Positions 14,183 through 33,825 of a stretch of 64,000 nt of DNA are shown here, in pieces. The notes beneath the pieces are model-generated. The model made no database searches. It saw nothing but the letters and a program-made list of their open reading frames with translations, and had not been told where the DNA came from. A program made the translations under genes and the position numbers. Numbering within the stretch: position 1 is the stretch's first letter; every line of letters begins with the position of its first letter. This stretch comes from Streptantibioticus parmotrematis (GTDB lineage Bacteria > Actinomycetota > Actinomycetes > Streptomycetales > Streptomycetaceae): contig NZ_JAINVZ010000004.1 of NCBI RefSeq assembly GCF_019890615.1, positions 124,001 through 188,000 on the forward strand, in the 5' to 3' direction.

Positions 14183-14183
14183 C

Positions 14184-14609: not shown

Positions 14610-14723
14610 ACGTGTCCGCTCTTGGGATGCACCTTGATCGGACAAAACCTGGCCGACGCGAGTGGCGATAATGGATGGGTGCACTTCGTAGCCCTAGAAG
14701 CTATATTGACTGGTTTATGGCGG

Positions 14724-14773
14724 CGCCCTGAACCTCGACGGTCAGGTTCGGGGCGGTGCCTCATAGATGAGGC
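14724..14773 (+). terminator. tandem hairpins downstream of the QueD-like gene
   Basis: The first hairpin pairs CGCCCTGAACCT (14724-14735) with AGGTTCGGGGCG (14744-14755), a 12-bp stem with one wobble. The second pairs GCCTCAT (14758-14764) with ATGAGGC (14767-14773). There is no long U tract, which is common for actinobacterial terminators. They probably end the ATPase-QueD transcript. Confidence 0.5.
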
Positions 14774-15869: not shown

Positions 15870-17147
15870 ATGATCCACCCTACGACCCGCGTGCTGGCGG
15901 CTGAGCTGCCAGACCACGTCGGTGAGACCCTTGAGATCTCCGGTTGGCTGCACCGCCGCCGCGAACTGAAATCGGTCACCTTCTTGATCCTTCGTGACCG
16001 CTCTGGACTGGCCCAGATCGTCCTGGCCGAGCCGGGCGGGGACTTCCCTGAGGAGACCGTGCTGCGTGTGCGCGGCACCGTGACGGCCAACGCTCAGGCT
16101 CCGGGCGGAGTCGAGCTGACCTCTCCCGAGATCGAGCCGCTGTCGAGCCTGGCTGAGACCCCGCCGTTCGACCTGTACCGGCCAACCGTGCCCGCGGTCC
16201 TGCCGACGATCCTGGACCACGCGCCGGTCACGCTGCGGCACCCGCGGCTGCGCGCGCCGCACCAGATCTCAGCCGCTTCCGTCGCCGGCTTCCGCGCGAC
16301 CCTCGACGCGCTGTCCTTCACCGAGATCCACACTCCGAAGGTGGTCTCCTCGGCCACCGAGTCCGGGGCGAACGTCTTCGCTCTCGACTGGTTCGGACGC
16401 CAGGCGTATCTCGCTCAGTCGCCGCAGTTCTTCAAGCAGGCGATGGTCGGAGTCTTCGAGCGGGTCTACGAGACCGGCCCGGTCTTTCGAGCCGAACCCC
16501 ACGACACCGCCCGGCACTTGGCTCAGTACACCAGCCTCGACGCCGAGATGGGCTTCATCGCCGACCACCGCGACGTGATGGCGGTGGTGCGTGAGGCCGT
16601 CGCCGGTATGGTCGAGCAGGTCGCTTCCCGCGCAGGTGAGGCTGTCCAACTCCTGGGGGTGAAGCTGCCGGAGGTGCCGGCGGAGATCCCTCACATCCAT
16701 TTTGCGGACGCCATGGCCATGCTGGGTACGGACGAGCCTGACCTCGCCCCGGCGCACGAGCGGTACCTGAGTGAATGGGCGCTGCGCGAGCACGGCAGTG
16801 AGTTCCTGTTCGTGACCGGCTACCCGATGACCAAGCGCCCGTTCTACACCCGGCCGGAACCCGGTCGCCCGAGGTACTCGAACAGCTTCGACCTGCTCTT
16901 CCGCGGGTTGGAGCTGGTCACCGGTGGGCAGCGGCTGCATCGGTACGAGGACTACGTGGCCGCGCTTGACGCACGCGGAGAGTCCACGGCCCCGTACGAG
17001 AGCTACCTGTCGGCCTTCGCGCACGGGATGCCGCCGCACGGCGGCTTCGCGCTTGGCCTGGAACGCTGGACCGCCCGCCTCACCGGGGTGGACAACATCC
17101 GCCGCACCACGCTCTTCCCTCGCGACCTCCATCGGCTCACTCCCTGA
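15870..17147 (+). CDS. archaeal-type aspartyl/asparaginyl-tRNA synthetase paralogue
   Basis: This 425-residue class IIb synthetase attaches aspartate (or asparagine) to tRNA. An N-terminal OB-fold anticodon-binding domain (about residues 10-95, with ISGWLHRRRELKSVTFLILRD) precedes the catalytic core. Motif 2 is FRAEPHDTARHLAQYTSLDAE and motif 3 is GFALGLERW. It lacks the large insertion of the normal bacterial AspRS, so it is the compact archaeal or non-discriminating form. Actinobacteria carry a standard AspRS for housekeeping, so this is probably a second copy. The ATG at 15870 follows TTGGAGG. It may confer resistance to an aspartyl-adenylate mimic or supply charged tRNA to a biosynthetic enzyme; both are inference. 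Confidence 0.85.
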   Translation: MIHPTTRVLAAELPDHVGETLEISGWLHRRRELKSVTFLILRDRSGLAQIVLAEPGGDFPEETVLRVRGTVTANAQAPGGVELTSPEIEPLSSLAETPPFDLYRPTVPAVLPTILDHAPVTLRHPRLRAPHQISAASVAGFRATLDALSFTEIHTPKVVSSATESGANVFALDWFGRQAYLAQSPQFFKQAMVGVFERVYETGPVFRAEPHDTARHLAQYTSLDAEMGFIADHRDVMAVVREAVAGMVEQVASRAGEAVQLLGVKLPEVPAEIPHIHFADAMAMLGTDEPDLAPAHERYLSEWALREHGSEFLFVTGYPMTKRPFYTRPEPGRPRYSNSFDLLFRGLELVTGGQRLHRYEDYVAALDARGESTAPYESYLSAFAHGMPPHGGFALGLERWTARLTGVDNIRRTTLFPRDLHRLTP

Positions 17148-17164
17148 CACGCCGACAACGCCGT

Positions 17165-17193
17165 TGTCCGGGCGGCTGACCGCCGCCCGGACA
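17165..17193. terminator. bidirectional hairpin between convergent genes
   Basis: TGTCCGGGCGGC (17165-17176) pairs perfectly with GCCGCCCGGACA (17182-17193) across a 5-nt loop. It lies in the 56-bp gap between the convergent synthetase and DUF89 genes and can serve both. Confidence 0.7.
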
Positions 17194-17203
17194 CGCGTCG
17201 TGG

Positions 17204-18385
17204 CTACAACCCGCCCTGGATGACGGCGTGCGTGCCGCTCGTGCGCCACGCCTCCCCGGTCGTCTCCAGCGCCGCGAGGGTCTCGGCGTCGAGTCCGACG
17301 ATGACATCGGACTTCAGTGTGCGCAGGGCGACGACTGGTCCGGGGAAGTAGCTGGTGCGGTCGGCGAACGAGGCGGTCGCCGGCAGCAGCTGGTCGCCGA
17401 CCAGGCGGCGATAGTTCAGGTCGCCCTTGAAGATGGTGAGCGTGGCCCGCGCGAAGTCGTCGCGCAGGTCCTCGGGCATGTCGGCGTAGGGCAGCGGGGC
17501 GCAGGAGAAGGAGTGGGCCCGGACGGCGAGCCGACCACTTCCCATGGCGTCCCATAGCCGGTCTCCGATCTCACCCGCGCGCCCCGGAGCCTCGGCGACG
17601 CGGCGCAGGTTGTCGATGACGTCGTTCATCGTGGCGTCGGAGACGTAGTACGGGTAGGGCTTGACGTGCAGTACGACGGCGGAGGCGCGGCCGGTGTGCA
17701 GGAGATGGTCGATGAGGACCAGGTCGGGGATCAGCTCGCGCCCGGCGTTGTCCGCCACGAGGTAGACCGTGGCGTTGGGCGAGGCACCCAGGTGTCGCCA
17801 GAGCAGGGCACTGTTGTCCACGATGAGGTTGCCCGCGCCCTCCCTAGCCTCGCCTGAGGAGATGCGGAAGCCGAGGTCCGCTCGGTTTCCCCAGAGGGCG
17901 CCGTGTAGCAAGGCCCGGTCTCGCCCTTCGAGTGGCAGATCGGCGACCTCATCGAGGGCCGCGAGTTCCTCCGCGACGGCGGACCCCCGTAGCTCGGCGC
18001 GTTTGAACGGGGCGAAGGGATCGATCCCTTGCCACGGGCCCCGCTCGAAGTATCCGACCGCTCCGAGAAGCCTGCGGTAGAAGTAGCTTTCCGCCCACAG
18101 GAACGGCACCTCGAACCAGGACCGCCCGAAGTACCCCTGTCCCCACCGAGCCCACGCGCTCTCATCGCGGGTGCCAGCGGGGAGCGGGGCGATGGCGCCT
18201 CCGGTGATCTCCTGGAGCAGGGAGTCGAGCGCCTGGTGTTGCTCCGGGCCGTACGGGAAGGCATCACGGACCTGCTGGATCAAGGCCGGGTGTCGCTTGT
18301 CCAGAACTCCGCGAGCGAAGGATCCTGGCGTCTCACTCGTGATCACGGGCGCGCTGAGCGGCGGCGTGTTGGCTGCTTCGGGCAT
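17204..18385 (-). CDS. DUF89 / ARMT1-type damage-control phosphatase family protein
   Basis: This 393-residue protein has the motifs of the DUF89 metal-dependent family: DNAGREL with a following Asp, HVKPYPYYVSDAT, and FKGDLNYRRLVGD. Known members remove phosphate from damaged or excess phosphometabolites, and human ARMT1 has been described as a carboxyl methyltransferase. Length fits the ARMT1-like subgroup. The start codon is 3 bp after the stop of the large STAND gene, and its GGAGGAAG ribosome-binding site lies inside that gene's end, so the two are translationally linked. Why a metabolite-repair enzyme is tied to a STAND protein is not known. The substrate cannot be read from sequence. 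Confidence 0.85.
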   Translation of the reverse strand: MPEAANTPPLSAPVITSETPGSFARGVLDKRHPALIQQVRDAFPYGPEQHQALDSLLQEITGGAIAPLPAGTRDESAWARWGQGYFGRSWFEVPFLWAESYFYRRLLGAVGYFERGPWQGIDPFAPFKRAELRGSAVAEELAALDEVADLPLEGRDRALLHGALWGNRADLGFRISSGEAREGAGNLIVDNSALLWRHLGASPNATVYLVADNAGRELIPDLVLIDHLLHTGRASAVVLHVKPYPYYVSDATMNDVIDNLRRVAEAPGRAGEIGDRLWDAMGSGRLAVRAHSFSCAPLPYADMPEDLRDDFARATLTIFKGDLNYRRLVGDQLLPATASFADRTSYFPGPVVALRTLKSDVIVGLDAETLAALETTGEAWRTSGTHAVIQGGL

Positions 18386-18388
18386 CGT

Positions 18389-21300
18389 CTACCGACTTCC
18401 TCCGTCTGTCGCCGCTTGGGCGTTGATGGTCAGAGCGACGACGCCGGCCGAACTGCCGACGAGGACTTGTCCCGTCGCGTTGTCGAAGCCCGCGCAGTGG
18501 ATCGAGGCGTCGACGCGTACCTCGGCGATTTGCCGCTGCTCGCTGAGGGACCACAAACGGACCGTTCCGTCAGCGGCCGCGGATACCAGTCCATCACCGT
18601 CATCGGTGAAGCCCAGCATGAGGACACGCCCGGTGTGCCCCGCCAAATGCGCGGTGAACCTGTCACCGGCGATGTCACGGACGGAGATCTCACCGGTCCC
18701 GAATCCCGCCGCCGCCCGATCGCCCGCCGCGTCGAGGGCGACGGTGCGGGCCCATCCGTTGGTGTAGGCGAAACGGCTGACGTGTTCACCGGTCTCCGCC
18801 CGCCAGACGCGCACCGAACCGTCGCCGCCGCAGGCGGCCACGACATCACCGTCACCGTCGAACGCGATCGAGCGCAGCCGCCCCGCGTGGACGTCCCGCG
18901 TCCAGACGAGTTCGCCGGAGGGCAGGTCGAAGCAACGGATGTGACCGTCACCGGTGCTCGCGGCCAGCCACGGTGCGGCACTCCCTAGGGCGACGGCCCA
19001 AGTGCGCGCCACGTCCTCGTTCAGGACCCGGTGCCACTGGGCATCGCGCCATGACCACGCTCGTACACTCCCGTCCCCGCACGCCGCGGCCACGTACTCG
19101 CCGCCGGTCGCCACGGACCAGACCCGCCCCTGGCCCGCCCGCAGCCGCCGGGTGGATTCCCGTGGCGAGACTCTGATCAGCTCGACGGTCCCCGAGCCGT
19201 CGCCGACGACGGCGAGGCGGCCGGCGTCCGCCAGTTGCGTGGACCACACGGCGTCCGAGCCCTCGGTGAGGGTTTCCATCCGCCCGCGCCCGGCCGGGTC
19301 CCACAGGCGGATCGCGCCGTCCTCACATCCGAGGACGACGGATCCATCTCCCGTGCGAGACACGGACCTTACCCAGTCGACACCGGATGGCATCCGTGCC
19401 TCCCCGACTAGCCCGTCGACGCCGAAGGCATGCACTCTCGGCTCCTCCGTCGCGGCGATGATCACGTCCGAGCGTTCGAGCGCGGTGACGGCGCGGACGC
19501 GGGTCTTGAAGTCCTCGATCCGCCGCACGGGGACGAGGCGGCGGCCAGCGGTGTTCCAAACGATGACGGAGCGGTCACCTGATCCAGTGACCAGGGTGGA
19601 TGAATCGGGGGCGAACGCCGTAGCGCGCACCCAGTCGCGGTGCGCCGCTCGTTCGGCGAGCAACTGGCCGGTACGCAGGTCGAAGAGGCGGACGAACTCG
19701 TCTTCGCCGACCGCGGCGACCACCGTGTCGTCGCGTCCGACCGACACCGACCAGACCGGGGTTCCGGCCGTTCTCATCGAGCCGGCGAGCACCATGCGCT
19801 GGATGTCCCAGACGCACACGTGTCCGTCCTCGGCTCCTGAGACCAGGAAGGCACCGGAATCGGAGAACGCCAGCCCCCGAACCCGCCGACTGTGTCCATT
19901 CAGGACTCCGAGGACCGCGCCGGTGTCAGCGCGCCACATCCGGATCGTCCCGTCGTCACCGGCGGAGGCGACGAGATGCCCGTCCCGCGACAGCGCGACC
20001 GCGAAGATCCACCCGGTGTGTGCCCGGTGGGTACGGACAAGGCGGCGCGTCGTGGGTTCCCAGAGTCGGAGCGCGCCGTCCTCCCCGCCCGAGGCGATCA
20101 AAGCTCCCGCGGAGGCGACGCTGACGACGGCTCCAACGTGACCATGGGAAGGATGGCTGTCCGCTGGTCGCACTACGCGCGACCGGAACCCTACGGATTC
20201 GTCCAGAGCGGCCGCGGTGTCCGCGTCGCCCGCCCGCCTCAAGGCGACAGCGAGTGTGCTCGCGACATCGGCTGAGTGCTGAAGTCCGCTCAGCAGGTAT
20301 CCGGCGCCGACCATGCTCCGCGCCGTCGCCCAGGAGCGCCGCCGGGGAGGGTCCGCCGACTGCCACTCGGTCAATGAGTCGAGGACGTTCGCGTCCGACA
20401 CCAGCGCCTGATGCCCAACGAGACTGACCTTGCGGACGACATACGAGGGGAAGGCGAGCATCTCGACCAACTCGTCGTCGAGAGCGGCCTCGTGGAGGTG
20501 ATAGGGCAGGTTCTGCCACAGATAGGTGTGCGTCTTGTCCAGGGCCTCCCATCGTCCGCCCGTCGTCTCGCGATACGACTCGATCAGCGACCGGTGGTGC
20601 GTCGTCCAATCGCTTCCGACCATGTGCCTCATGTAGGCACGGAACACATCGTGCACGGCGATCGCTCCGGGATCGGCGAGGTAGCCGCTGATCAGGGACC
20701 GATCCGCGAGGAGCCGGCAGAACTGCCGCACGGCGGTCGGGGTCCAGCCGTATGCCGTCTGCCACCAGCGCGTCACGACGCTCAGGGGGATGGGCACGGC
20801 GGCCGGGAACACCGAGAGGGAAAGGAATCGCTCGCGAAGCCCGGAAGCCCCGTTGATCACGACGCTGCTGTCGAGATTGCTCAGGCTCGACGCGATGGCT
20901 TGGCCGATCGTCTTCTTTCGCTGGTCGGCGTCCCACACGTCGAACGCTTGCGGGCCTTCCGCTCGCAGCGCGTCGCCCGCTTGGAGCACGGCGAGCTCGG
21001 GGAGGGCGCCGGCCTCCACGTCCTGCGAAACGGTGGAGCCCACAAGGGTGGCCAGCAGCGGCCAGCCGCCACACATGCCAGCCAGCTTCGCTGCGGTTGG
21101 CGGTTCGAGGGCCGTGACGTTCCGGGTCAGCATCTCGCTGATCTCGCCCGCCGACATCGGCCCGAGCCGCACGATACGCGTCGCTGACGGGCAGACGCGG
21201 ACGTTCCTCGTCGTAACAACTCTCACGCAGTCGTTTCCGCCCAGCAGGAACGGCGCGAGGTCGGTCGCGGACCACACGTTGTCGATGACGAGCAGGGCGC

Positions 21301-21916
21301 GACGGTCTTGGAGCAGGCGCGCGAGGTGGAAGCCCGCCTGCTCCGGATCGGTGAGCGCCGGCCGGGTGCCGCTGAGGTGAACGCAGAGATCGGAGATCAA
21401 CTGGACGGTGCGGGCGGCCGTGCATTCCTCGCCGGTCTCGACCCACAGGATCTCGGGGAAGAGTTCGCGAACCCGCGGGTCGTCGCAGACCTGAGTCACC
21501 AGCGTCGTCTTGCCGAAGCCGCCGGGCCCGCAGACGGCCACCGGTACGGTTCCCGTGGTGGCCGACGCCTCCCCAATGACGGAGACGAGGTTCTCGAAAT
21601 CGTCTGACCTGTGAACCAAGGCGGGCTCCGGTGACGGTGCGAGTATGAAGCTGCCCAGCGCGGGTGACGTCGCCGCGGCCGACGCTCCCAGGATCTCCCG
21701 AAACCGCTGCCGGGCGGCCGAGTCGGCCCGTTCCAGGACCGTGTCCAGCAGCGCCTGTGATTCCGGTACGGGCTCGATCTCCTCGCCCCCGGCCTCCCAG
21801 TTGGACACCGTGCGATCGCTGACGCCGAGGTGAGCCGCGAAGCGTCGCAAGCTCATCCGCGTCGCCAAACGTAACGCGCGCGCTTCCCGCCCGGTCCACC
21901 GTTGCACCGCGCTCAC
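18389..21916 (-). CDS. XRE / NB-ARC / WD40 STAND protein
   Basis: This 1175-residue protein has three parts. Residues about 10-60 are an XRE-type helix-turn-helix (MSLRRFAAHLGVSDRTVSNW). Residues about 105-470 are an NB-ARC switch ATPase with Walker A CGPGGFGKTT (129-138), Walker B ALLVIDNVW, the VVTTRN sensor and a winged-helix region. From about residue 590 to the end come roughly a dozen WD40 repeats with DGxxRLW-type ends, forming one or two beta-propellers. Such proteins are ligand-sensing switches. The GTG start follows GGAGGGG. It is divergent from the peptide-modification operon across 312 bp and is co-transcribed with the DUF89 gene, so it is a good candidate for their regulator or sensor. 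Confidence 0.9.
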   Translation of the reverse strand: MSAVQRWTGREARALRLATRMSLRRFAAHLGVSDRTVSNWEAGGEEIEPVPESQALLDTVLERADSAARQRFREILGASAAATSPALGSFILAPSPEPALVHRSDDFENLVSVIGEASATTGTVPVAVCGPGGFGKTTLVTQVCDDPRVRELFPEILWVETGEECTAARTVQLISDLCVHLSGTRPALTDPEQAGFHLARLLQDRRALLVIDNVWSATDLAPFLLGGNDCVRVVTTRNVRVCPSATRIVRLGPMSAGEISEMLTRNVTALEPPTAAKLAGMCGGWPLLATLVGSTVSQDVEAGALPELAVLQAGDALRAEGPQAFDVWDADQRKKTIGQAIASSLSNLDSSVVINGASGLRERFLSLSVFPAAVPIPLSVVTRWWQTAYGWTPTAVRQFCRLLADRSLISGYLADPGAIAVHDVFRAYMRHMVGSDWTTHHRSLIESYRETTGGRWEALDKTHTYLWQNLPYHLHEAALDDELVEMLAFPSYVVRKVSLVGHQALVSDANVLDSLTEWQSADPPRRRSWATARSMVGAGYLLSGLQHSADVASTLAVALRRAGDADTAAALDESVGFRSRVVRPADSHPSHGHVGAVVSVASAGALIASGGEDGALRLWEPTTRRLVRTHRAHTGWIFAVALSRDGHLVASAGDDGTIRMWRADTGAVLGVLNGHSRRVRGLAFSDSGAFLVSGAEDGHVCVWDIQRMVLAGSMRTAGTPVWSVSVGRDDTVVAAVGEDEFVRLFDLRTGQLLAERAAHRDWVRATAFAPDSSTLVTGSGDRSVIVWNTAGRRLVPVRRIEDFKTRVRAVTALERSDVIIAATEEPRVHAFGVDGLVGEARMPSGVDWVRSVSRTGDGSVVLGCEDGAIRLWDPAGRGRMETLTEGSDAVWSTQLADAGRLAVVGDGSGTVELIRVSPRESTRRLRAGQGRVWSVATGGEYVAAACGDGSVRAWSWRDAQWHRVLNEDVARTWAVALGSAAPWLAASTGDGHIRCFDLPSGELVWTRDVHAGRLRSIAFDGDGDVVAACGGDGSVRVWRAETGEHVSRFAYTNGWARTVALDAAGDRAAAGFGTGEISVRDIAGDRFTAHLAGHTGRVLMLGFTDDGDGLVSAAADGTVRLWSLSEQRQIAEVRVDASIHCAGFDNATGQVLVGSSAGVVALTINAQAATDGGSR

Positions 21917-22143
21917 CGAAGCCCCTCCGACCGACTCCCCAACGCTAAACAGCGTAGGGCCCCTTGACCAGCGGCGGAGTCGCTTCGCTGCGACGGCGAT
22001 TCAGCACCGCTGCAGCAGCCCGACTCTGCAGGGTCGACCACTCGCCACCTCGTCGCTCCGTCACCGTGGCAGCGCCAGTGCGGCGGCGGTGCGGCACGCC
22101 GACATCCCCGCCAACCTCCCGCGACCGGCAGCCTTTGGCGGGT

Positions 22144-22189
22144 GACCGCGGCGGGGGACGGTTCTCCCCCTGCCGGGCCCGCCGCGGTC
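22144..22189 (+). promoter_or_regulatory. perfect 12-bp hairpin in the leader of the peptide-modification operon
   Basis: GACCGCGGCGGG (22144-22155) pairs exactly with CCCGCCGCGGTC (22178-22189). The 22-nt loop itself holds G- and C-rich runs that could pair differently. It lies 40 bp before the first gene of the operon and downstream of most of the divergent intergenic region. It could be an attenuator for the operon or a terminator; no U tract follows. Confidence 0.55.
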
Positions 22190-22228
22190 CGCCCGAGCTC
22201 CATAGGCCGAAGGTTAGGAGAAAGGCAC

Positions 22229-22585
22229 ATGCCCACACCTCGCCGTACCAAGACCGACCACTTGATCCACGCGGACGTCGTGGACTCCAAGAGCAAGGCT
22301 GGCGTCTGGATGGGAGAGCGCGCCTCCTTCCAGGACAAGCAGCGCCAGATCCTCGAAGGGCTCAAGGACGCCCTGAACTGGGTACCGCTGGAGGGCGCCA
22401 TCATGGCGATCAGCACCAACCCGGCAGGCATCACGGTCATCGCCCCGAACCCGACTCTCCCGGGCCTGATCGTCCTCGCGGACGGCGGCTCTCCCGCGGC
22501 CTCCGCCCATCTCCAGACCAACGGCGAGGACCTCGTCCGCCAGGTGATGAGCGGCCTCGGGATCGCCGAGGAAGCCGCCGCCTGA
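22229..22585 (+). CDS. small protein leading a radical SAM operon, candidate modified substrate
   Basis: This 118-residue protein is the first gene of the operon, 5 bp before a SPASM radical SAM enzyme. It matches no family I recognise. The N-terminal third is charged (SKSKAGVWMGERASFQDKQR). The middle is hydrophobic and Pro/Asn-rich (STNPAGITVIAPNPTLPG). The end is helical and acidic. SPASM enzymes usually modify a peptide or small protein encoded next to them, so this is the best substrate candidate. It is longer than most RiPP precursors and shows no obvious leader cleavage site. It may instead be a folded carrier or accessory protein. A GGAG lies 8-11 nt before the ATG. Confidence 0.65.
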   Translation: MPTPRRTKTDHLIHADVVDSKSKAGVWMGERASFQDKQRQILEGLKDALNWVPLEGAIMAISTNPAGITVIAPNPTLPGLIVLADGGSPAASAHLQTNGEDLVRQVMSGLGIAEEAAA

Positions 22586-22590
22586 CGATC

Positions 22591-23892
22591 ATGGCAGCTA
22601 CCCGCCTCCTGTGGGGGAAGTACTTTCAGTACGACCGGGACGGCGAGGCCGTCCTCCTCGACCCGGTCACGCTGAACAGCTGCTACCTCGACCGCGGGGA
22701 GGTCACCGACCTCTCCGCGGTCCCCCCGACCGCGACCCATGACGCTCTCTCCGAGCTCGGCTTCACTCCGGACGGCCCCGCCACCGACCGACGCGAAGCA
22801 CTCCGTCGTCAACTCCGCGACCTGGCACTCGACCCGACACCGAACCGCGTCAGCGGCCTGCGAATCGTGCTCACCGACCGGTGCAACATGGCTTGCACGT
22901 ACTGCTTCGTCGACACGAACACCGGCAAGCCGGACATGACCGAGGACGAACTCGCCGAAGGTCTGCGCTACCTCTTCGAGGAGAACGCCGACCGCGACGA
23001 GGTCTCCATCCAGTGGTTCGGTGGCGAGCCCACCATCCGATTCGACCTGATGCGGTACGGCGACGAGCTCGCCGACCGCCTCGCCGCCCAGCACAAGGTC
23101 AAGCGTGTCCGGCGTACCGTCGTCACCAATGGCGCCCGCCTGACCGACGAAGCACTCAACCACCTCGTTCGTCATGAGTACGGCGTCGGGATCTCGATCG
23201 ACGGCCCGCCCGACATCAACTCCGCCAACCGCCTGCTCCTGGGCGGCCGGCCCGCGGACGACCGCATCCGCCGCAACGTGCGGCGCCTGGTCGAGGCGGA
23301 GGAGCTTCACGTCGGCTGCAACCTCACGCCCACCGCGGCCAATATCGGGCGCCTCGCCGAGACCGTCGCCTGGATCATCGACACGCTCGGACTGAAGTTC
23401 ATCTACGTCAACACGCCCATCCCCACCGGCGGGCGCTGGCGTGTGAACGGCCAGGATCTCGCACACGAGCTGTACGAAGCACGCCTGGTGGCCCTCAGCA
23501 AGGGCGGTCTCCTCTTCTCCGTCCTCGACCGCGCGTTCCAGGCCCTCGACACACGACGCCCCATGCTCTTCGACCACATGCAGGGCGACGGAACGCTCAA
23601 CGCCGCTTACCTGCCGGGCAAACGGGTCAGCCTGTGCGACATCAACTTCACCGAGCCGAACTTCCTCTTCACCCTCGACGAACTGCGCTACCACCCCGAG
23701 GTACTCGGCACCGTCACCAAGCGGGTCGCCCCCGTCCCCGCCTGCGGTGACTGCCCCGCCCTCGCCATCTGCGGCGGCCCATCCCGGAATGAACAGCTCC
23801 TCATCGGAGGAGATACCCCCGACCCCGAGATGTGCGCCTTCTACACCGAGACCGTCGACATCGCCCTCTGGGACAACACGGGGGTCCAATGA
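22591..23892 (+). CDS. radical SAM / SPASM peptide maturase
   Basis: This 434-residue enzyme has an N-terminal region that may bind a peptide substrate (about residues 1-90), a radical SAM core and a C-terminal SPASM-type cluster domain. C98, C102 and C105 form the CxxxCxxC site for the SAM-binding 4Fe-4S cluster (DRCNMACTYC), followed by WFGGEPT. The auxiliary-cluster cysteines are in SLCD, PACGDCPALAICGG and EMCAFY. Enzymes of this design install cross-links or other changes in peptides. It is 5 bp after the small-protein gene and overlaps the second radical SAM gene by ATGA, so the three are translationally coupled. The reaction type cannot be told from sequence. Confidence 0.9.
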   Translation: MAATRLLWGKYFQYDRDGEAVLLDPVTLNSCYLDRGEVTDLSAVPPTATHDALSELGFTPDGPATDRREALRRQLRDLALDPTPNRVSGLRIVLTDRCNMACTYCFVDTNTGKPDMTEDELAEGLRYLFEENADRDEVSIQWFGGEPTIRFDLMRYGDELADRLAAQHKVKRVRRTVVTNGARLTDEALNHLVRHEYGVGISIDGPPDINSANRLLLGGRPADDRIRRNVRRLVEAEELHVGCNLTPTAANIGRLAETVAWIIDTLGLKFIYVNTPIPTGGRWRVNGQDLAHELYEARLVALSKGGLLFSVLDRAFQALDTRRPMLFDHMQGDGTLNAAYLPGKRVSLCDINFTEPNFLFTLDELRYHPEVLGTVTKRVAPVPACGDCPALAICGGPSRNEQLLIGGDTPDPEMCAFYTETVDIALWDNTGVQ

Positions 23893-24761
23893 CCGAGCCC
23901 ACGCGCGGGCATCGCTACCGCTCCGCTCTCATCAGCACGGCCGGCCACTGCGCGATCGCCTGCGGTTTCTGCTTCCGCGCCGACCGCGCCCACGGCCTCC
24001 TCAACGTCGACACATACAGCCGAGCACTCTCCCGCCTGAAGGAGCACGGGGTAACGGGTGTCTGCCTGACGGGGGGAGAGCCTACCCACCACCCCGAACT
24101 GCGCCAACTCGTGCGACTGGCCCACCAGTTCGGCATGCCGGTCTCCATAGTCACCTCGGCCCGAGCGGAACCGGAGGTGCGGTGCCTGGAACAGGTGGCC
24201 CACCTCTTGGAGAACGCCACCGTCTCCGCGGACTCGCGCGGGGCGATGCGGCTCGGCCGGACTCTCCGCTCGGTCCGCTCCGCCGCGCACACCCTGCGAC
24301 GAATCGGCGTTCCGAGCGCGGTCCTGCACCTCACCTATTGGAACCTGACCGGCCACGAGTGCCGTGAGATCGCCGATGCCGTTGACAAGACGGGAGCGTC
24401 GCTCCAGCTCAGCCCCATCACCCTGGACACGACCGGGTTGCGTCGAGCCGGCCTCACCCCGAACTCCTACGCGGAGCAGCAACAACGTGACGCCAAGTTC
24501 CTCAGCCAGCACTTCGAACTCGGAACCTGCTTTCAGCGGCACCTGGACGCCCTCAACGAGCTGAACTCCACCGCCGAGCGGCCCTACTGCCGCTCGCCAA
24601 CGCTCTACCTGTCCGCGACCGGCGAACTGCGGCGCTGCCCGTATGGAACCGAAGGCGTCAGCGTGTCAGCCCCGCGTTCCGACATCGCTCGGTTCCTCGC
24701 CGGTCCGCCGACCGAACAAGCTACCGCGGACTGCCTCGCGCTCTGCCGGGCAGCCGCATGA
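23889..24761 (+). CDS. second radical SAM enzyme
   Basis: This 290-residue protein has a radical SAM core with CxxxCxxC at C21, C25 and C28 (HCAIACGFCFRAD) and the GGEP motif in CLTGGEPTHHPEL. Extra cysteines near the C-terminus (ERPYCRSP, LRRCPYG, TADCLALCRA) could hold an auxiliary cluster, a shortened SPASM-like arrangement. The start overlaps the previous stop by 4 bp. Together with the first enzyme it suggests two-step modification of one substrate, or a partner that supplies or recognises a second substrate. I do not recognise a specific subfamily. It does not look like QueE, so a link to the distant QueD-like gene is not supported. Confidence 0.85.
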   Translation: MTEPTRGHRYRSALISTAGHCAIACGFCFRADRAHGLLNVDTYSRALSRLKEHGVTGVCLTGGEPTHHPELRQLVRLAHQFGMPVSIVTSARAEPEVRCLEQVAHLLENATVSADSRGAMRLGRTLRSVRSAAHTLRRIGVPSAVLHLTYWNLTGHECREIADAVDKTGASLQLSPITLDTTGLRRAGLTPNSYAEQQQRDAKFLSQHFELGTCFQRHLDALNELNSTAERPYCRSPTLYLSATGELRRCPYGTEGVSVSAPRSDIARFLAGPPTEQATADCLALCRAAA

Positions 24762-24780
24762 CCTACCGCGAGGCCACACG

Positions 24781-25566
24781 ATGGACAACACCGTAGAGAC
24801 CGCTCGCGACTTCACCTCGCGCTGGCACACACCGCCCAACTTCCGTGTAGCCGCGGGGCTCGTCCCGTTCAAACGCGCCTTCCCCGACACCATCCACGTG
24901 CTTGACGTCGCCCGCCGCGATCCAGAGACCCGGGTCACCATCCTCGGGGGCGGAGACCCCGCCGTCCGCACAGCTCAATCGGCGGCCTTCCGCACCGCCC
25001 CCCTGGACGAGATCACCACCTGGCCATTCCGACTGGCCCACTTCAACCTCGAACGCTTCTACGACGGACTGCTGCGGGATTTCCAGGAGCGGGTCATGAT
25101 CCCCTGGCGCACGTTCATCGCTTCCCAGGGCTTCACCTGGCTGCGTTGCGCCCCGGCTCTCTTCATCTCCAGTCAGGGCAGTAGCTCCACGTACCACGCC
25201 GACAACTCCCACGGCCTCGTCTGGCAGATCGCGGGCACCAAGAGCTTCCACAGCTACAGGGATCCTGACCGCATCACCCCTGTCGAGGCCGCCATCTCCG
25301 GCGAGATCACCGCCGAACAGCCGCCCCCGCACAGCGCGACTGACCGCCACTCCATCAGAATGCGGCCCGGAGACTTGGCATGGAGCCACGTCCTCACCCC
25401 GCACTGGGTTACCAGCGAATCGCCTCTCGCGATGAGCGTCACCATCTCCCACGGGGGCCTCTGCCATCAGGGGTGTTATGCGCACCGGGGGGCCGCCCTC
25501 CGGCGACACTGGGATGCGAACCCCAACGAGGTATGGCTTACTGACCTGCGCAACACACGCTACTGA
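24781..25566 (+). CDS. JmjC/cupin-like Fe(II)/2-oxoglutarate oxygenase candidate
   Basis: This 261-residue protein resembles the cupin_8/JmjC oxygenases that hydroxylate peptides or small molecules. The metal ligands would be H139 and D141 in YHADNSHG and H208 in LTPHWV. MRPGDLAWSHVLTPHW is the typical distal strand. WQIAGTKSFHSY matches the usual Q-x-x-G-x-K-x-(W/F) stretch preceding the acidic loop. It follows the second radical SAM gene by 19 bp. I infer that it adds a hydroxylation or similar oxidative step to the same product. The end of the protein (WDANPNEVWLTDLRNTRY) has no clear role. Confidence 0.75.
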   Translation: MDNTVETARDFTSRWHTPPNFRVAAGLVPFKRAFPDTIHVLDVARRDPETRVTILGGGDPAVRTAQSAAFRTAPLDEITTWPFRLAHFNLERFYDGLLRDFQERVMIPWRTFIASQGFTWLRCAPALFISSQGSSSTYHADNSHGLVWQIAGTKSFHSYRDPDRITPVEAAISGEITAEQPPPHSATDRHSIRMRPGDLAWSHVLTPHWVTSESPLAMSVTISHGGLCHQGCYAHRGAALRRHWDANPNEVWLTDLRNTRY

Positions 25567-25998
25567 CCGCTGTCCGTGCTGGCTTCACGCGTGGGGAGGG
25601 TCATCCATGCGTGTGCCCAAGCTCGGTGGCCCCATCGTGCTGGTCTGGGCACGATACAGCGTGCGTCCTCGCCTCTCGGCCCGCTACCGAGTTCATCGCC
25701 AGAGAACGCCGACCGGTTCAGAGTCTTCCAACTGTCCACCTGTGTACACCGGACTGGACCCGCAATAGGCAACCCGAACCTGGCCGGCATCTGTCTCAAC
25801 GGGGACCGGTTGATCACGAACGACTTGCCGATACCCCCATTCCAGTTGCATGCCAGCCGGGCTCTCACCTGCCAGACGCACGACCGCCTTCGCTCAAGTC
25901 AAGTTGAGTAGCCCGGCCCCAGAGTCATACCCGCGTGGATAATGGGCAGAGCGGCCGCATCTCCTCGTGGTGTGGCGCTTTGAAGGAGGGCGCCGATC
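25567..25998. other. gap after the peptide-modification operon, no gene seen
   Basis: These 432 bp have no convincing gene and are somewhat lower in GC than the flanks. A minus-strand frame contains NWNGGIGKS, which superficially resembles a ParA P-loop, but nothing else of that family follows. The right end holds the promoter and the AAGGAGGG ribosome-binding site for the gene at 25999. Confidence 0.5.
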
Positions 25999-26475
25999 AT
26001 GACGGGGCTGGAGATCGTAGTTGGGGAGTTCCTGGTGGCTTGGGCAGCCCGGAAGGCGCGCAGGGTTGGTAAGCGGGTTGACACCGAGATCGACCAGGCC
26101 CTGGACCTCGGGCTCGACCGCCTGCACGAATTGGTCGCTGGCAAACTCGGTGGGGACCCAGCCCTGGCCAAGCTGGCCGCAGAGATTGAGCAGTCCGGCG
26201 AGGCGTCCTCCCGTACGCAGGAGCGTGTGCGGCTGGCGTTGGAGGACGCAGCGGAGACGGACCCCGGCTTCGCCTCCGACCTGAGGGCTGTAGTCCAGGA
26301 GCTGCAGGGCATGCAGCGCCAGGCTGGCGTCGCTGTAGCTGGACAGCAAGGCGTCGTCGTGTCGGGCAACGTCCAGGCCGACCGTGGCGCGGTGGCGATC
26401 GGCGGTGTTTCTGGCAGCACTGTGTCGATCGGACTCCCGCCGGGCCCTTCCGCGCCGGGCGGGAACAAGGGCTGA
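25999..26475 (+). CDS. small two-part protein, helical plus solenoid-like tail, unknown
   Basis: This 158-residue protein has a helical N-terminal part (about residues 1-110, rich in Arg, Glu and Leu) and a short Gly/Val-rich tail. The tail has the alternating pattern of a beta-solenoid (GVVVSGNVQADRGAVAIGGVSG). Similar small proteins occur in Streptomyces under vague names, but I know of no function. A strong AAGGAGGG precedes the ATG. The next gene follows on the same strand, and its upstream in-frame sequence (GIQAQHNSTAVGVVHG) has the same solenoid look. The two may therefore be functionally paired or once joined. Confidence 0.6.
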   Translation: MTGLEIVVGEFLVAWAARKARRVGKRVDTEIDQALDLGLDRLHELVAGKLGGDPALAKLAAEIEQSGEASSRTQERVRLALEDAAETDPGFASDLRAVVQELQGMQRQAGVAVAGQQGVVVSGNVQADRGAVAIGGVSGSTVSIGLPPGPSAPGGNKG

Positions 26476-26585
26476 CCGCACCCGGCGAGCACTCGCCCAC
26501 CGCGCTGATTGACACGACAAGTGCGCCGGCGTCTGGCATTCAGGCACAGCACAACAGCACGGCCGTCGGCGTCGTTCACGGGCCT

Positions 26586-27893
26586 TTGACGATCTGTTCC
26601 AGGGCTCATCCTGCCACCGACACGGCCACGCGTCCGATCGAGGTCGGAGAGGGCGCTGATCCGCAGACCCGGAGCGAGTTCGAGCGGGCGTTTCATCGCG
26701 CGGGCGGCGAGGCCCGATTGGGCCATCCGACTGCTCGCGTCGCCGAGGATGCGCTGGGCTATGCCCAGCACTTCGCCAGATCCGGCGGCCACTGGTCCGT
26801 GATTTGTGCTTTGGCAGGTGAGGATGCCGTTGCCGTCGCTGGATCCGTGTGGGAGGACGTCACAAACCCGCCAGGGCTGCCAGGCCAGGGTGTTGCCGCT
26901 ATCGGCTACCCGCTCGCGCGGACTGGAGCACCCGATTCGGCAATGAGTAACTACATCACCACTGACGCCGACATAGTCGAAGTGGGCGGCGGATCATGGG
27001 GCCGGGGTGTGCTGCTGCGTCCTCCGGACGGGAGCCGGGCGCGATGGCAGCCGCACCCGCGAATGACCCTGGACGCGCGAGAGGCGCTCCGGATGCCAGC
27101 GGCGGGGGAGGCCGACCTCACGGTACGCGCAATCGCGACACTTCCCTGGCAACTCGACGAGGAAGCACTGGAGATCACGCGGCTGACACGCCAGCGGCTC
27201 GGAATGCTCCTTCCGCGCGCAGAGATCAGCAATGCGATCGCGCTCTTGTCTCAATGGCGAGGGGCCGCGGTCACATCACCGGAGTGGGACCGCGCGACCG
27301 GACCAGGCATACTTCAATCGGGAACGGCCGCCCAGTACGACAGTGTCCTGAAGACTCCCGACGGCGGAGTCGCCGTACGGATCTCCGCTCGCTTGTTCTT
27401 GCCGATCGGCCAGCCACGAGCCGTAAGAGTTCTCATCGAGTTTCAGGCGAACCTCACGGCGTGGCGGTCGACCCTTCTGCGGACGGCCGACGGCGTAGTG
27501 ACTGAGGATTTCAGGGTTACGGCCAACGAGGTCGTGGAGTTGTGGATGGCTGCGTGGGATGCGGCGGCCATGGTGGTACCGCGGGCCCTGGTGAATGATC
27601 CGCAGCTTGTGCCCTTGCTGGCTCCCTCCGAGGTTGAACTGCAGGTCAAGGCGAATGACCGCGTAGTCCAGGCTGCCGCTGGTAGTCAGCGGCTGGTGGA
27701 CGTGTTCGATCTGTCGGTGTTCGGCGAACCGGACGGTGACCCGAGGCCGGATGGGGCGGCCACAGTGATCGCGCCATTGGGATTCGGTCGCGATGACCGG
27801 CGGCGATGGGCAGGCAAGGCTCTGACCCGGTTGGCTCGTGCCTGGACGTTCGTGGAGGCGGACGAGTCTGATCTCGACCGGGTCGTCCGGTAG
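26586..27893 (+). CDS. unknown protein of about 435 residues, start uncertain
   Basis: This protein is read from a TTG at 26586, but the frame is open upstream to the end of the previous gene. The extra residues (GIQAQHNSTAVGVVHGPLT) look protein-like, so a rare start near 26472 or a sequence frameshift is possible. The C-terminal half is beta-rich with many Val, Arg and Trp (VRVLIEFQANLTAWRSTLL). No catalytic motif is recognised. It ends immediately against the convergent stop of the 1092-residue gene, with no bases between. The grouping with its neighbours suggests one accessory system of unknown role. Confidence 0.55.
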   Translation: MTICSRAHPATDTATRPIEVGEGADPQTRSEFERAFHRAGGEARLGHPTARVAEDALGYAQHFARSGGHWSVICALAGEDAVAVAGSVWEDVTNPPGLPGQGVAAIGYPLARTGAPDSAMSNYITTDADIVEVGGGSWGRGVLLRPPDGSRARWQPHPRMTLDAREALRMPAAGEADLTVRAIATLPWQLDEEALEITRLTRQRLGMLLPRAEISNAIALLSQWRGAAVTSPEWDRATGPGILQSGTAAQYDSVLKTPDGGVAVRISARLFLPIGQPRAVRVLIEFQANLTAWRSTLLRTADGVVTEDFRVTANEVVELWMAAWDAAAMVVPRALVNDPQLVPLLAPSEVELQVKANDRVVQAAAGSQRLVDVFDLSVFGEPDGDPRPDGAATVIAPLGFGRDDRRRWAGKALTRLARAWTFVEADESDLDRVVR

Positions 27894-30800
27894 TCACGGC
27901 ACGTCGTCGTGACTGTGGATGTCTCGCAGGTCCAACCCTGAGCGGAGAAGGCGACTGACGATTGTCCGGGTCCGCCCGCAGGCCAGGCGGTCGGTGCTGA
28001 GGTGGCGGCTGGCGAGGAGCACTTCCCGAATGCTGTCTTCGTCGCGGGTGAGAAACCAAAGCGACGGTTCGGTGCGTGCCCACGCTTCGAGGGCGGCGAG
28101 GCTGTCGGCTGGAAACCGCGGAGCGATCGACGCGAGGCGGGTTAGGACGCGGTCGTCGGTGCCCCGCAGCGCCGTGTGGGTCAGAACGTCCCGCAGTCGG
28201 CGCACAGCCCAGCCGTCCTCGAAAGCGCCGGAGGAGAACCACCACCCGAACCCGCGCAGTTCTGTCGCGTCTCCGCCTCCCTGCACCGCGACAAGACGCT
28301 GATCGAGCAACCCGGCCAGCCGGTCTGCGGTGGCCTTCGAGATGTCAACCAGGCCGTACCCCATACGTTCGAGGAGGTGCGCTCGCACGCTGACGGGCGC
28401 GCGGTCGTAGTAGCGGTGCAGGAGCGAGTCTGGACCGGCGAGGTCGATAGAGCCGACGCAATACCGGTGCACCAGATGCCAGCCCAGGTGAGTCGCGAGG
28501 TAGAGCGATTCGTCGTCGGTCGCGTCCGGGTCGAGGCGCTGGAGAGCGACTTCATACTGGCTGTGCAACGCCGACCACACGTCGGGGTCAAGGGTGACTC
28601 GGCCGAGGTAGCCGTTCCACGCTGCTGCCCAGAAAGCGCGGCTGTGGACGTCGAGCGGGAACAGACGGGCGGCGCGGGCGGCTGCCTGCTCGCGATCAAG
28701 CCGAATCAGCTCTGCGAATCGCGCACCCAAGACCCACCTCACCGATCTTGAAGGATCAGCCCAGACCTCCAGGTGTTCATCGACCACCGTGAACAACCTG
28801 GACAAGTCCGCATTCGGGTCGTCGCTCTGTTCCCAGGTACCCCAGTCGATCGCTGCGTTGATCGCCACGGGGCGAACGGTATTCATGGAGACAAATTCGG
28901 GGTGGGTACCTCCACTGACCTGCTGTTCCTCGTCGGCGGGGGTGGGATCGGGGTCTGCAATAGCATGCTGGATGAGCGTCCACAATGTGTCTTGTACGTC
29001 CCGAAGGGAACTAGCGGGCTCGGCCATGCCGAGGCGAACCAACCTCATCACCGATTTGCGAGCCTCTTTCCAGAGTCGAGATCCCGCGATCGGGTCATCG
29101 AGTTCCGCAACCGCTTGTTCATCCGCCCACGCCAACAACGGAACGATGCCTGGCCAATCCAGATCCGTATCCTGCCGGGCCGCGTTCTCCAGACCGCCCA
29201 GGACGGCTGTCACGTAGTGCGCCGGAAGGCCGATGAATGCCGCGGCCTCGGCGGAGCGGCGGCGGGCGTCTTGTTCGATCGCCGTCCGCAGCGGCTCGTC
29301 CAGGGATTCGCCGTCCCATCTGACAGGACCACCAGTCGGTGGCTGCCAGGTCCGCAGATACTCGACGAGTTCGTTAGTTGGCCGGGCTGCGAGGTCGCCA
29401 GCTACGACTGGGGCCGGCGGCACAGAAGCAAACGTCCACACCAGGTTCTGCGGGCGCGGAAGGAGGGGTTCACCGAACTGGGAGACCAGCGTTTCATAAC
29501 GCCGTACCCAGGGGGCGGGCAACACCTCACGGAGCAGCGCGAGACGGTCACGCTGCCAGGTTCCTAGCCAGCTATCACGTTCCGCTTGGGACGGCGGTAT
29601 GCCTGTATTGCTGGTGTACCTGGCCAGTTGGTCGTCGAGATCTGGCCCACTGTCGATGAGCGCAAGCAGTTCAGCCAGCTCTGGCCTGCTCAGCAAGTTG
29701 GCTCGACGCTGGGCGAGGTCGTTGTACTCGGCATCGTGCGCGCGGTTGCGCAGCAGTTTCGGATTGAGTAGCCGATCAGCGACAAGATCGCGTGCCTCAT
29801 CTCCACGCTCGGCCAGCACGTGCAGGGCAATGCGCTGGAAGATCACGCTATCTCCAGCATCCAGCACGCCCAGTACCGTGCCGGAGCTGGCAGGTTCGTG
29901 TTCAACGAGGGCGATGGCGACGTCTCGGACGGCGCTAAACAAGGCATCGGTCGGATCGTGATTCTCGTGCTCCGAGGTGCCCGCGACGCTGGGACGCCAT
30001 GTTGTCGAATACCGCGTCCAACGTCCGTCATCCTCTGTGACGACCTGACGGAGACGATCACGCAGGACGGCCAGCAGCTCTGTCCCGACCGTTTCCACCA
30101 TCGCCGGGACGTGCTTGCGGAGGAGTTCCGCGTAGTACCAGGCCTGCATCGCAGCCGCACGACCGCCTGATGGCACCTTCTCAAGCAGGGCACCGAGTAG
30201 GTCCAGAGCCTTCCGCGAGTAGCCAGCGCCCGCCAACTGAGTCGCTAGTTCGCCGACGGCCAAAGGATTCGTCACGCCGGCACCGGTTCGGATATCGGTC
30301 ACCACACGGTCGACCAATTGCTGGCCGTACTCGGCGGGTACCGCAAGCCCTACCGACACGATGTCACCGTTCACACGGGCGTTCTTCGAATGGGGAATGT
30401 TCATCGCAGCAGTTACCGCTGCCTGTGGCTGATTCGCCGCGATCCGGGCGATGTAAGAGGATTCCGGCCACATGTCCAGCCGCATCAAGCCCCCGTCGCC
30501 GTACGGTTGCGGTGGCAATGGCGCCAGGAAGAACCCGGCTGATACCAGCGGCTCCAGCCACTGCGGGCCGATGCCTCCGAAAAACCGGGATTGGGTGGCT
30601 GGATCCTGGGGCAGGCTCTGGCGGACTTGGCGGGCGTGGGCGACCGTGGGTTGTTCCAGCGCGATGAGCGCATCCACTTGTTGCACGACCTCGTCGTACC
30701 GCGACTCGAATTCCTCCAGCACGCGGTCCAGCAGGATCTCGAAGGCGTTGAAGAAGGACCGGAACTCGTCATCGATTGCATGTGGCGCGCCCAGGCCGTC

Positions 30801-31172
30801 GCGATGCGCCCTGCGCGCCAAGTTGTAACGGCTGTTGGCCCCGGCCATCTCCAGCCACGTCGTGGCAATCGGATCCATGTGATCGATGTCCAGAGCTTGC
30901 AGGACAGCCAGGATGCTCGCCTCATGCCCTGCCACGCCTGGCGCGCGAAACGCGCTGATCACGGCGCGAAGACCGCTCTCGACCTCTCGCAGCAAGTGGC
31001 TGACCAGATGCGTGACGGTCACCCGCGTCGGCCGCTCGACCATCAGTTCGCAGGCATCCCGGAAGAACCAGGCAGGGCCAGGGCCAAGTTGGGTCAGCCG
31101 CATGGCTATGCGTTCCTGCCGTTCAGACAGCACCGTTCTACGACCCGACCTGGGATCTGGGGCGTTCGTCAC
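27894..31172 (-). CDS. large helical protein of 1092 residues, unknown
   Basis: This very large protein has no P-loop, nuclease or protease motif that I can see. Most of it looks alpha-helical with repeated short helices, as in HEAT-like or TPR-like scaffolds (for example ELATQLAGAGYSRKALDLLGALLE). A central stretch holds many Trp and Pro residues. Low similarity to named families, large size, isolation on the minus strand and a place in a phage cargo block are all usual for uncharacterised anti-phage proteins, but that is inference. The GTG start has AAGGA upstream. It converges exactly with the gene at 26586-27893. Confidence 0.7.
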   Translation of the reverse strand: MTNAPDPRSGRRTVLSERQERIAMRLTQLGPGPAWFFRDACELMVERPTRVTVTHLVSHLLREVESGLRAVISAFRAPGVAGHEASILAVLQALDIDHMDPIATTWLEMAGANSRYNLARRAHRDGLGAPHAIDDEFRSFFNAFEILLDRVLEEFESRYDEVVQQVDALIALEQPTVAHARQVRQSLPQDPATQSRFFGGIGPQWLEPLVSAGFFLAPLPPQPYGDGGLMRLDMWPESSYIARIAANQPQAAVTAAMNIPHSKNARVNGDIVSVGLAVPAEYGQQLVDRVVTDIRTGAGVTNPLAVGELATQLAGAGYSRKALDLLGALLEKVPSGGRAAAMQAWYYAELLRKHVPAMVETVGTELLAVLRDRLRQVVTEDDGRWTRYSTTWRPSVAGTSEHENHDPTDALFSAVRDVAIALVEHEPASSGTVLGVLDAGDSVIFQRIALHVLAERGDEARDLVADRLLNPKLLRNRAHDAEYNDLAQRRANLLSRPELAELLALIDSGPDLDDQLARYTSNTGIPPSQAERDSWLGTWQRDRLALLREVLPAPWVRRYETLVSQFGEPLLPRPQNLVWTFASVPPAPVVAGDLAARPTNELVEYLRTWQPPTGGPVRWDGESLDEPLRTAIEQDARRRSAEAAAFIGLPAHYVTAVLGGLENAARQDTDLDWPGIVPLLAWADEQAVAELDDPIAGSRLWKEARKSVMRLVRLGMAEPASSLRDVQDTLWTLIQHAIADPDPTPADEEQQVSGGTHPEFVSMNTVRPVAINAAIDWGTWEQSDDPNADLSRLFTVVDEHLEVWADPSRSVRWVLGARFAELIRLDREQAAARAARLFPLDVHSRAFWAAAWNGYLGRVTLDPDVWSALHSQYEVALQRLDPDATDDESLYLATHLGWHLVHRYCVGSIDLAGPDSLLHRYYDRAPVSVRAHLLERMGYGLVDISKATADRLAGLLDQRLVAVQGGGDATELRGFGWWFSSGAFEDGWAVRRLRDVLTHTALRGTDDRVLTRLASIAPRFPADSLAALEAWARTEPSLWFLTRDEDSIREVLLASRHLSTDRLACGRTRTIVSRLLRSGLDLRDIHSHDDVP

Positions 31173-31814: not shown

Positions 31815-32235
31815 CGTGGAAGGAGTGAGGCGGGTTGTCGGTCGCATTCTGGATGACGAGTTGGAGGTGTGGCGGGACAGCGGCGGGCACGCGGACGACG
31901 TTCTTGACGAGATCACGGGCCGGTTGGTGCCGTCTGCGCCGGATGAGGTTCTGGTGTGGAACGGGCTCGGCGCAGTGATGCCTCTGGGGCGTCCGGCGAT
32001 CACGAAGCCGTTGGACGGGGCGGTCGCGCAGTCACCGCCGACGGCGGACTACCAGGCGGTGCTGCCGGTCGGCGCTGCGCGTCTGCGGCCCGATGACGTC
32101 ATTCGCGTTGCTGGGTCCGTACGTCCGGGTGGGCCGCGCGATCCCCAGTTGGTCGGACGGCGTTTTCGGGTCTCGGACGGGGCGGTCGGCACGTACAGCG
32201 TGGTGCGGATCGTGCGAGTGCAGGTGATCGCCTGA
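31804..32235 (+). CDS. head-tail connector, DUF6093-like
   Basis: This 143-residue protein resembles the small DUF6093-type proteins found between capsid and tail genes of actinophages and thought to close the head. The pattern YQAVLPVGAARLRPDDVIRVAG near residue 85 and a C-terminal beta strand pair (YSVVRIVRVQVI) fit a connector fold. It starts at a GTG inside the previous gene and its TGA overlaps the next ATG (TGATG). The family name is from memory and moderately sure. Confidence 0.6.
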   Translation: MAFDVEGVRRVVGRILDDELEVWRDSGGHADDVLDEITGRLVPSAPDEVLVWNGLGAVMPLGRPAITKPLDGAVAQSPPTADYQAVLPVGAARLRPDDVIRVAGSVRPGGPRDPQLVGRRFRVSDGAVGTYSVVRIVRVQVIA

Positions 32236-33106: not shown

Positions 33107-33162
33107 ACGACTTTCCTCACCGCGGAGGCCCGCGCGGACGCTCGGCCCAAGGCCAGGCGAAC

Positions 33163-33182
33163 CCCCTTTGAGTTTCAAGGGG
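33163..33182 (+). other. hairpin before the major tail gene
   Basis: CCCCTTTGA and TCAAGGGG can pair with one bulge across a 3-nt loop, 47 bp upstream of the major tail protein start. It may stabilise or tune the abundant tail transcript, or act as a weak terminator. Confidence 0.4.
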
Positions 33183-33822: not shown

Positions 33823-33825
33823 TCC

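Follow-up and report, generated by a model that had tools for sequence, protein, structure and literature searches.

We describe a four-gene operon in a 64,000-nucleotide stretch of the Streptantibioticus parmotrematis genome (hereafter the window; contig NZ_JAINVZ010000004.1, positions 124,001 to 188,000). The operon encodes a small protein (PRE), two radical S-adenosylmethionine (SAM) enzymes (RS1 and RS2) and a cupin/JmjC-like protein (CUP), and in the Streptomycetaceae it is nearly always found with an extra, archaeal-type aspartyl-tRNA synthetase (AspRS). We tentatively favor, with a confidence a little below even, a mobile unit like those for ribosomally synthesized and post-translationally modified peptides (RiPPs), in which the modified tail of PRE yields an AspRS inhibitor and the linked AspRS provides self-resistance. 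Our searches of the open-access literature found no title or abstract describing this cassette. The genes concerned are the following.

22229 to 22585, plus strand: PRE, a conserved small protein of 118 residues, presumed substrate or carrier (open frame)
22591 to 23892, plus strand: RS1, a SPASM-type radical SAM enzyme of 433 residues (family match, conserved cysteines, predicted fold)
23889 to 24761, plus strand: RS2, a second radical SAM enzyme of 290 residues (family match, conserved cysteines)
24781 to 25566, plus strand: CUP, a cupin/JmjC-like presumed Fe(II) oxygenase of 261 residues (family match below cutoff, HxD...H ligands)
15870 to 17147, plus strand: accessory archaeal-type AspRS of lineage a (PRK05159, 526 bits), the presumed self-resistance copy

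A preliminary description of this stretch had proposed a peptide-modification cluster, with co-occurrence in other genomes as a check. The operon it outlined is real, with its coordinates and catalytic residues correct. Its genes were said to be linked by 5-bp gaps or ATGA overlaps, which holds for PRE and RS1 (5 bp) and for RS1 and RS2 (ATGA overlap) but not for RS2 and CUP, which are 19 bp apart. The co-occurrence was found: PRE, RS1, RS2 and CUP are encoded together at all 29 D-type loci, although RS2 is split in two pieces in L016. This set comprises Streptomycetaceae loci, the window included (L002-L022, L035, L037, L058-L061, L063), some perhaps from different assemblies of one species; L036, L056, L057 and L062, taken as repeat records because their contigs have equal lengths, were left out. 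As all four genes are kept at every locus, a chance arrangement is excluded, and a short encoded precursor beside its maturases is what a RiPP unit would look like.

The cassette is patchy. A scan for the PRE pattern in genomes of 84,980 species returned at least 21 loci, all from Streptomyces or other Streptomycetaceae. In whole-genome samples, PRE matches were found in six of 297 genomes (family), 13 of 391 (order) and one of 394 (class); the single class match is that of the window genome. One of the 13 order matches is a remnant (G470/L055) in which only residues 1-55 of PRE remain, continuing into RS1-like sequence. Plasmids and named phages gave no PRE match.

The linked AspRS is the most constant neighbor. 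An archaeal-type AspRS is encoded at 28 of the 29 D-type loci, and the contig of the remaining one (L005) ends about 40 bp past CUP; the same contig end explains why the count among the first 21 loci of the scan is 20. At 26 loci the enzyme belongs to lineage b and its gene is convergent with CUP, 55-912 bp away. In the window and in L002 it belongs to lineage a, and its gene lies beyond PRE, 7.6 kb from CUP. The window genome also encodes a bacterial-type AspRS on another contig, 34% identical to the accessory copy. The linked AspRS is thus an extra, divergent copy beside a housekeeping enzyme, as expected of a self-resistance synthetase. Archaeal AspRS was present in all nine D-type PRE genomes of the order sample vs 28 of 391 overall (Fisher 1.3e-11, ignoring kinship). 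The family sample gave four of four vs 78 of 297 (Fisher 0.0045), a weaker association since several other genera carry archaeal AspRS independently.

The accessory enzyme may be catalytically competent. It retains the OB-fold anticodon domain, and at the sequence level motifs 2 and 3 and the QSPQ and RPFY stretches are kept in both lineages. A Glu to Gln change in motif 2 of the window AspRS was considered as a resistance substitution; it is uninformative because it is common to five compared lineage a copies away from cassettes. Lineages a and b are 36-41% identical, whereas PRE from the two groups of loci is 68-77% identical. L063 has the window's neighbors on the PRE side (see below) and yet a lineage b AspRS at the CUP end, so the window AspRS looks like a replacement for an earlier synthetase at this locus. 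In three relics (L096, L097, L098) an AspRS stretch without stops lies beside decayed cassette genes. We also built a tree of 46 AspRS copies (24 of the 28 linked, three relics and 19 free), in which free lineage b copies are scattered among linked ones at several places. Both observations fit a resistance gene outliving its pathway, or repeated recruitment of AspRS. Near the window AspRS lies a QueD-like gene (14175-14609; TIGR03367, just below cutoff), and in L099 genes reading by eye as QueC and QueE are near an AspRS.

RS1 and RS2 match the radical SAM family (E 4.5e-15 and 3.3e-9). Cysteines C98/C102/C105 and C385/C388/C394/C415 of RS1 are kept in at least 35 of 36 aligned sequences, and C21/C25/C28, C234 and C250 of RS2 in at least 34 of 35. 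The predicted fold of RS1 is nearest the solved structures of CteB, ChlB, TigE and anSME, which are peptide- or protein-modifying radical SAM enzymes, CteB and ChlB being RiPP maturases. Sequence and predicted fold place RS1 with the SPASM maturases that modify peptides. Among its best 25 of 73 matched family models no cutoff was reached; one of many such matches is to the quinohemoprotein maturase model TIGR03906 (2.4e-27). RS1 residues 1-77 are predicted as four strands followed by three helices in a weak model (block mean predicted local distance difference test (pLDDT) 46-66), and the listed structural alignments begin at residue 62 or later, with one at 35. A RiPP recognition element, of three strands and three helices, is possible at this poorly predicted N-terminus. 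Neither RS1 nor RS2 had a B12-binding match in the family search. CUP reached 18.9 bits against Cupin_8 (cutoff 27.4) and had no PDB match at E up to 1; its H139, D141 and H208 are identical in 33 of 33 aligned sequences, three of them repeat records.

PRE had been described as a protein of no recognised family, and this stands: it passed no Pfam or NCBIfam cutoff, had no PHROG match and had no PDB relative by sequence (best E 0.11). Its AlphaFold model has a mean pLDDT of 74.6 overall, with the tail (residues 1-26) below 50. The tail is predicted to be disordered and residues 27-118 to form a helix, four strands and a helix. Foldseek with this model gave a best E of 0.13. VIA-align paired it with the C-terminal part of a phosphomannomutase (Z 9.3, root-mean-square deviation 3.8, 91 residues) and, at Z 6-8, with chains from Roco, BamC, KA1 and TBP; we rejected kinship to these folds and read the similarity as a common arrangement.

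Residues 11-30 of PRE are strongly constrained. Across 26 distinct D-type sequences 17 of the 20 positions in 11-30 are fixed vs only 29 of 88 in 31-118. Codon changes are mostly synonymous there, with a non-synonymous share of 0.17 for residues 11-30, compared with 0.48 for 2-10, 0.74 for 31-64 and 0.64 for 91-117; residues 65-90 are conserved too (0.25). From this strong conservation we infer that residues 11-30 are the part read by the modifying enzymes, with PRE as their probable substrate. The proposal of a peptide-modification cluster agrees with the co-occurrence and with the predicted fold of RS1, PRE being the presumed modified protein. PRE is without cysteine and its tail is without Phe. 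All 32 D-type rows have Asp at position 19, where L033, L034 and L054 have Gly and L053 has Ala. We dropped the idea that this residue matches the linked synthetase, because L053 is linked to glycyl-tRNA synthetase (GlyRS) yet has Ala and because GlyRS is missing from two of the loci with Gly.

Four distant, G-type PREs are encoded in G271 (L033), G432 (L053), G026 (L034) and G357 (L054) and are 47-51% identical to that of the window. The preliminary description had three redox enzymes acting on one product; the D-type loci all encode these enzymes, but three of the four distant cassettes are without CUP in the stretches examined and have in its place an aldo/keto reductase together with a pair of PhyH-type oxygenases. 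L033 and L053 contain RS1, RS2, the aldo/keto reductase, the two PhyH-type oxygenases and a P450. A YcaO/TfuA pair is also present in L033, an S9 peptidase adjoins the L053 cassette, SARP-type regulators were recognized by eye in the distant cassettes, and most of RS2 is missing from L034. All four are without an adjacent archaeal AspRS. A fused alpha-beta GlyRS is encoded 3.5 kb (L033) and 0.3 kb (L053) from PRE. These two copies are 85% identical, and three cassette-free copies are 58-62% identical to that of L033.

L053 encodes a further protein of 385 residues (5885-7039, minus strand) between the P450 and PhyH genes, with a class II D/K/N synthetase core. It matches PF00152 only (1.7e-13), has no anticodon domain match and gives weak AspRS and EpmA model matches; by sequence it may transfer aminoacyl groups. 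Beside each of the two GlyRS-less cassettes a large protein is encoded (L034 2441-4624 and L054 12474-14369, both minus strand) that matches nothing in Pfam or NCBIfam; the two have no detectable relationship to each other.

By its gene content the window is a prophage, a setting that, like the linked AspRS, the preliminary description had overlooked. Overall we find its interpretation partly supported. The surrounding features are as follows.

555 to 10610, plus strand: head module (PHROG), with terminase large subunit 555-2048, portal 6530-8290 and major head 9561-10610
32235 to 39934, plus strand: neck/tail module (PHROG), with neck 32235-32660, major tail 33214-33822, tape measure 34764-39023 and distal tail 39020-39934
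17204 to 18385, minus strand: ARMT1-like (PF01937) protein, present next to the L002 and L063 cassettes too
18389 to 21916, minus strand: NB-ARC/WD40 protein, divergent from PRE, with an N-terminal helix-turn-helix by eye, also in L002 and L063
22144 to 22189, plus strand: perfect 12-bp hairpin in the PRE leader, not conserved and probably incidental

The cassette and about 21 kb of cargo sit between the major head and neck genes (window 10610-32235), an interval that serves as a large cargo site in a family of Streptomyces prophages. The same phage type is present in G325 and G434 (major head 85-86% and terminase 86-87% identical to the window), where the cassette again lies in this interval, though in the opposite orientation to the phage genes. 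The interval measures 27 kb in G325 and 42 kb in G434. In G079 the corresponding place in a less similar prophage (major head 55%) holds a cassette relic. A search of viral contigs with RS1 gave 66 loci, three full-length (79%) and the rest partial at 21-38%. The three contigs with full-length matches are the same three that encode PRE, beside tail genes of the window's phage type. D-type loci in G354, G475, G326, G348 and G508 had no such phage genes within the 52-53 kb examined. A protein of 1092 residues next to the cassette (27897-31172) has a PADLOC match to Dsr1 (4e-18, model positions 502-1026) and is a possible defence gene by this match. The NB-ARC/WD40 protein is a possible regulator.

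The leader hairpin of the preliminary description is exact (22144-22155 paired with 22178-22189), and the region folds better than shuffled sequence in the window (z -3.4). It is not conserved: among nine relatives folded only L013 is similar (z -3.9, with different stems), and the closest relative, L002, has z -0.6. We therefore rejected a conserved regulatory element; the hairpin is probably incidental because the relatives folded do not share it. There was no Rfam match at gathering score within 14500-27000.

Linked, divergent and exchangeable synthetases suggest self-resistance, and together with radical SAM enzymes of the peptide type they suggest a ribosomal route to a synthetase inhibitor. 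In the mechanism that we propose, the cassette would be a mobile RiPP-like unit, carried here by a prophage. The conserved, disordered N-terminal tail of PRE would be modified at about residues 11-30 by RS1 and possibly by RS2 as well. The folded domain (27-118) would display the tail, acting as a built-in leader, and CUP would then hydroxylate or oxidise the product. Modified PRE, or a fragment released by a host protease, would be the active product inhibiting AspRS; the carrier would survive by means of an insensitive archaeal-type AspRS, which shares only about 34% identity with the housekeeping enzyme. In the distant cassettes, with their other tailoring enzymes, the target may have shifted, in two of four probably to GlyRS.

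Several observations weigh against this proposal. No exporter or protease recurs with the cassette in the 22 loci whose neighbors were clustered, from genes called by a simple script that misses those below 70 residues. A dedicated protease or exporter is usual, though not universal, for RiPP pathways. Besides the four genes and AspRS no neighbor family occurs in more than six of the 22 loci; one of the six-locus families reads by eye as an amino-acid-permease-like protein. PRE is without a hypervariable core, unlike many RiPP precursors. Archaeal AspRS is common without the cassette: it is encoded in 78 of 297 family genomes, and PRE matches in only six of the 297. Lineage a copies without a cassette are found in L110, L111, L113 and L114, and in G134 copies of the two lineages lie about 33 kb from each other, so the window AspRS may be separate cargo. 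In L125 there are two stops in AspRS and none in the pieces of RS1 (72-433), RS2 and CUP. No match to the alpha-beta GlyRS was found in the genomes of L034 and L054, and this enzyme, uncommon but not confined to cassette carriers, is encoded in 14 of 197 order genomes, of which only G271 also matches PRE. Other synthetases are encoded nearby as well: TyrRS in L012 (2987-4513), MetRS in L014 (13139-14932), L021 (13278-15065) and the PRE remnant L055 (15677-17455), and GluRS and SerRS beside the cassette-free AspRS of L126 (1213-2625 and 12513-13910). The linkage could therefore be partly an accessory-island effect, and accessory-synthetase islands are possible in Streptomyces. Our confidence in an AspRS inhibitor with its own resistance enzyme is held below even because no exporter or protease recurs, AspRS is often alone, other synthetases lie near some loci and half of the G-type cassettes are partnerless.

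The TyrRS, MetRS, GluRS and SerRS genes also bear on an alternative that we consider unlikely, in which PRE would be part of a structure or an enzyme and would acquire a protein-derived cofactor of the kind found in quinohemoprotein amine dehydrogenase, the synthetase being just a passenger in an island with many accessory synthetases. A strongly conserved, mostly folded PRE and the TIGR03906 match of RS1, one among many, would suit such a subunit. However, no partner enzyme recurs beside PRE apart from the cassette genes and AspRS, and a cassette with PRE matches in so few genomes of the order and family is patchy. The place of AspRS is also nearly fixed, at 26 loci close to CUP, while the other synthetases are found at few loci only.

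It is less probable still that the accessory synthetase is biosynthetic, activating or transferring an amino acid onto PRE or an intermediate. The modification of elongation factor P (EF-P) uses a comparable set: EpmA, a synthetase homologue that acts on EF-P, the radical SAM enzyme EpmB and the hydroxylase EpmC. The class II core protein inside the L053 cassette has a weak EpmA match. In the available excerpt of PMC12945691, SbzA is both a resistance and a biosynthetic enzyme. Against such a role, AspRS keeps its anticodon domain and tRNA-synthetase motifs. Its gene is on the strand opposite the operon at 26 of 28 loci and precedes the operon at two, and it persists in three relics whose cassettes have decayed. 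A distant lineage can also take its place, as GlyRS does in two distant cassettes.

An equally improbable role, as a prophage defence or toxin-immunity module in which modified PRE blocks AspRS inside the cell during infection by a rival phage and the accessory AspRS is the antidote, would agree with the head-tail position in the window, G325 and G434, with the Dsr1-matching and NB-ARC/WD40 proteins in the window cargo and with the lack of a recurrent exporter, but the cassette genes matched no defence family except viperin models (through the radical SAM cores of RS1 and RS2), five other D-type loci are without phage genes of this type in the 52-53 kb examined, and the SARP-type regulators, P450 and one YcaO/TfuA pair of the distant cassettes are typical of secondary metabolism.

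If the self-resistance reading is true, a ribosomal-peptide pathway would be tied to inhibition of AspRS and GlyRS, with a self-resistance pair that can be tested directly. The AspRS pairing hints at an undescribed inhibitor of protein synthesis that travels with its own resistance gene, and the prophage occurrence points to a phage cargo site that moves biosynthetic and translation genes among Streptomyces. To our knowledge few natural AspRS or GlyRS inhibitors have been described, and a substrate that is folded, conserved and altered at its N-terminal tail would be unusual for a RiPP. Whether this amounts to a new class of gene-encoded synthetase inhibitors, with a folded carrier and rebuilt tail, spread by prophages together with a resistant synthetase and with variants for AspRS and GlyRS, is more doubtful, although possible.

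Among known systems, the closest for the modifying enzymes are the radical SAM/SPASM RiPP maturases of the ranthipeptide/sactipeptide type (CteB; ChlB, TigE, SuiB). RS1 has the radical SAM core and C-terminal SPASM cysteines of this group and is nearest in predicted fold to CteB, ChlB, TigE and anSME; the operon led by a small protein is also similar. The differences are that PRE is a conserved, mostly folded protein of 118 residues with neither cysteine nor a hypervariable C-terminal core, and that RS1 stays below cutoff in the best 25 of 73 models. The EpmA/EpmB/EpmC set likewise places a class II synthetase homologue, a radical SAM enzyme and a hydroxylase around one small protein. Here AspRS is complete in its tRNA-synthetase domains and is encoded outside the operon, and PRE has no EF-P match in Pfam, NCBIfam or PDB searches.

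Like the biphenomycin pathway, as outlined in the available part of PMC12707348, the cassette pairs radical SAM and JmjC-type hydroxylase enzymes with one ribosomal precursor. In that pathway the radical SAM enzyme is B12-dependent. Our four-gene operon differs from it in having no MNIO or TldD-type protease gene, no B12-binding match in RS1 or RS2 and no Phe in tail residues 1-26 of PRE. For the synthetase, the parallels are the ascamycin (AcmD/AcmF) and SB-203208 (SbzA) clusters, where, in the excerpt of PMC12945691, the extra AlaRS AcmD and IleRS SbzA are self-resistance synthetases. As in the D-type loci, the biosynthetic genes are accompanied by an additional, divergent synthetase gene. 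Their products, according to the same excerpt, are aminoacylated small molecules and not gene-encoded peptides, whereas here the synthetase is AspRS or GlyRS and the product would be a modified ribosomal peptide.

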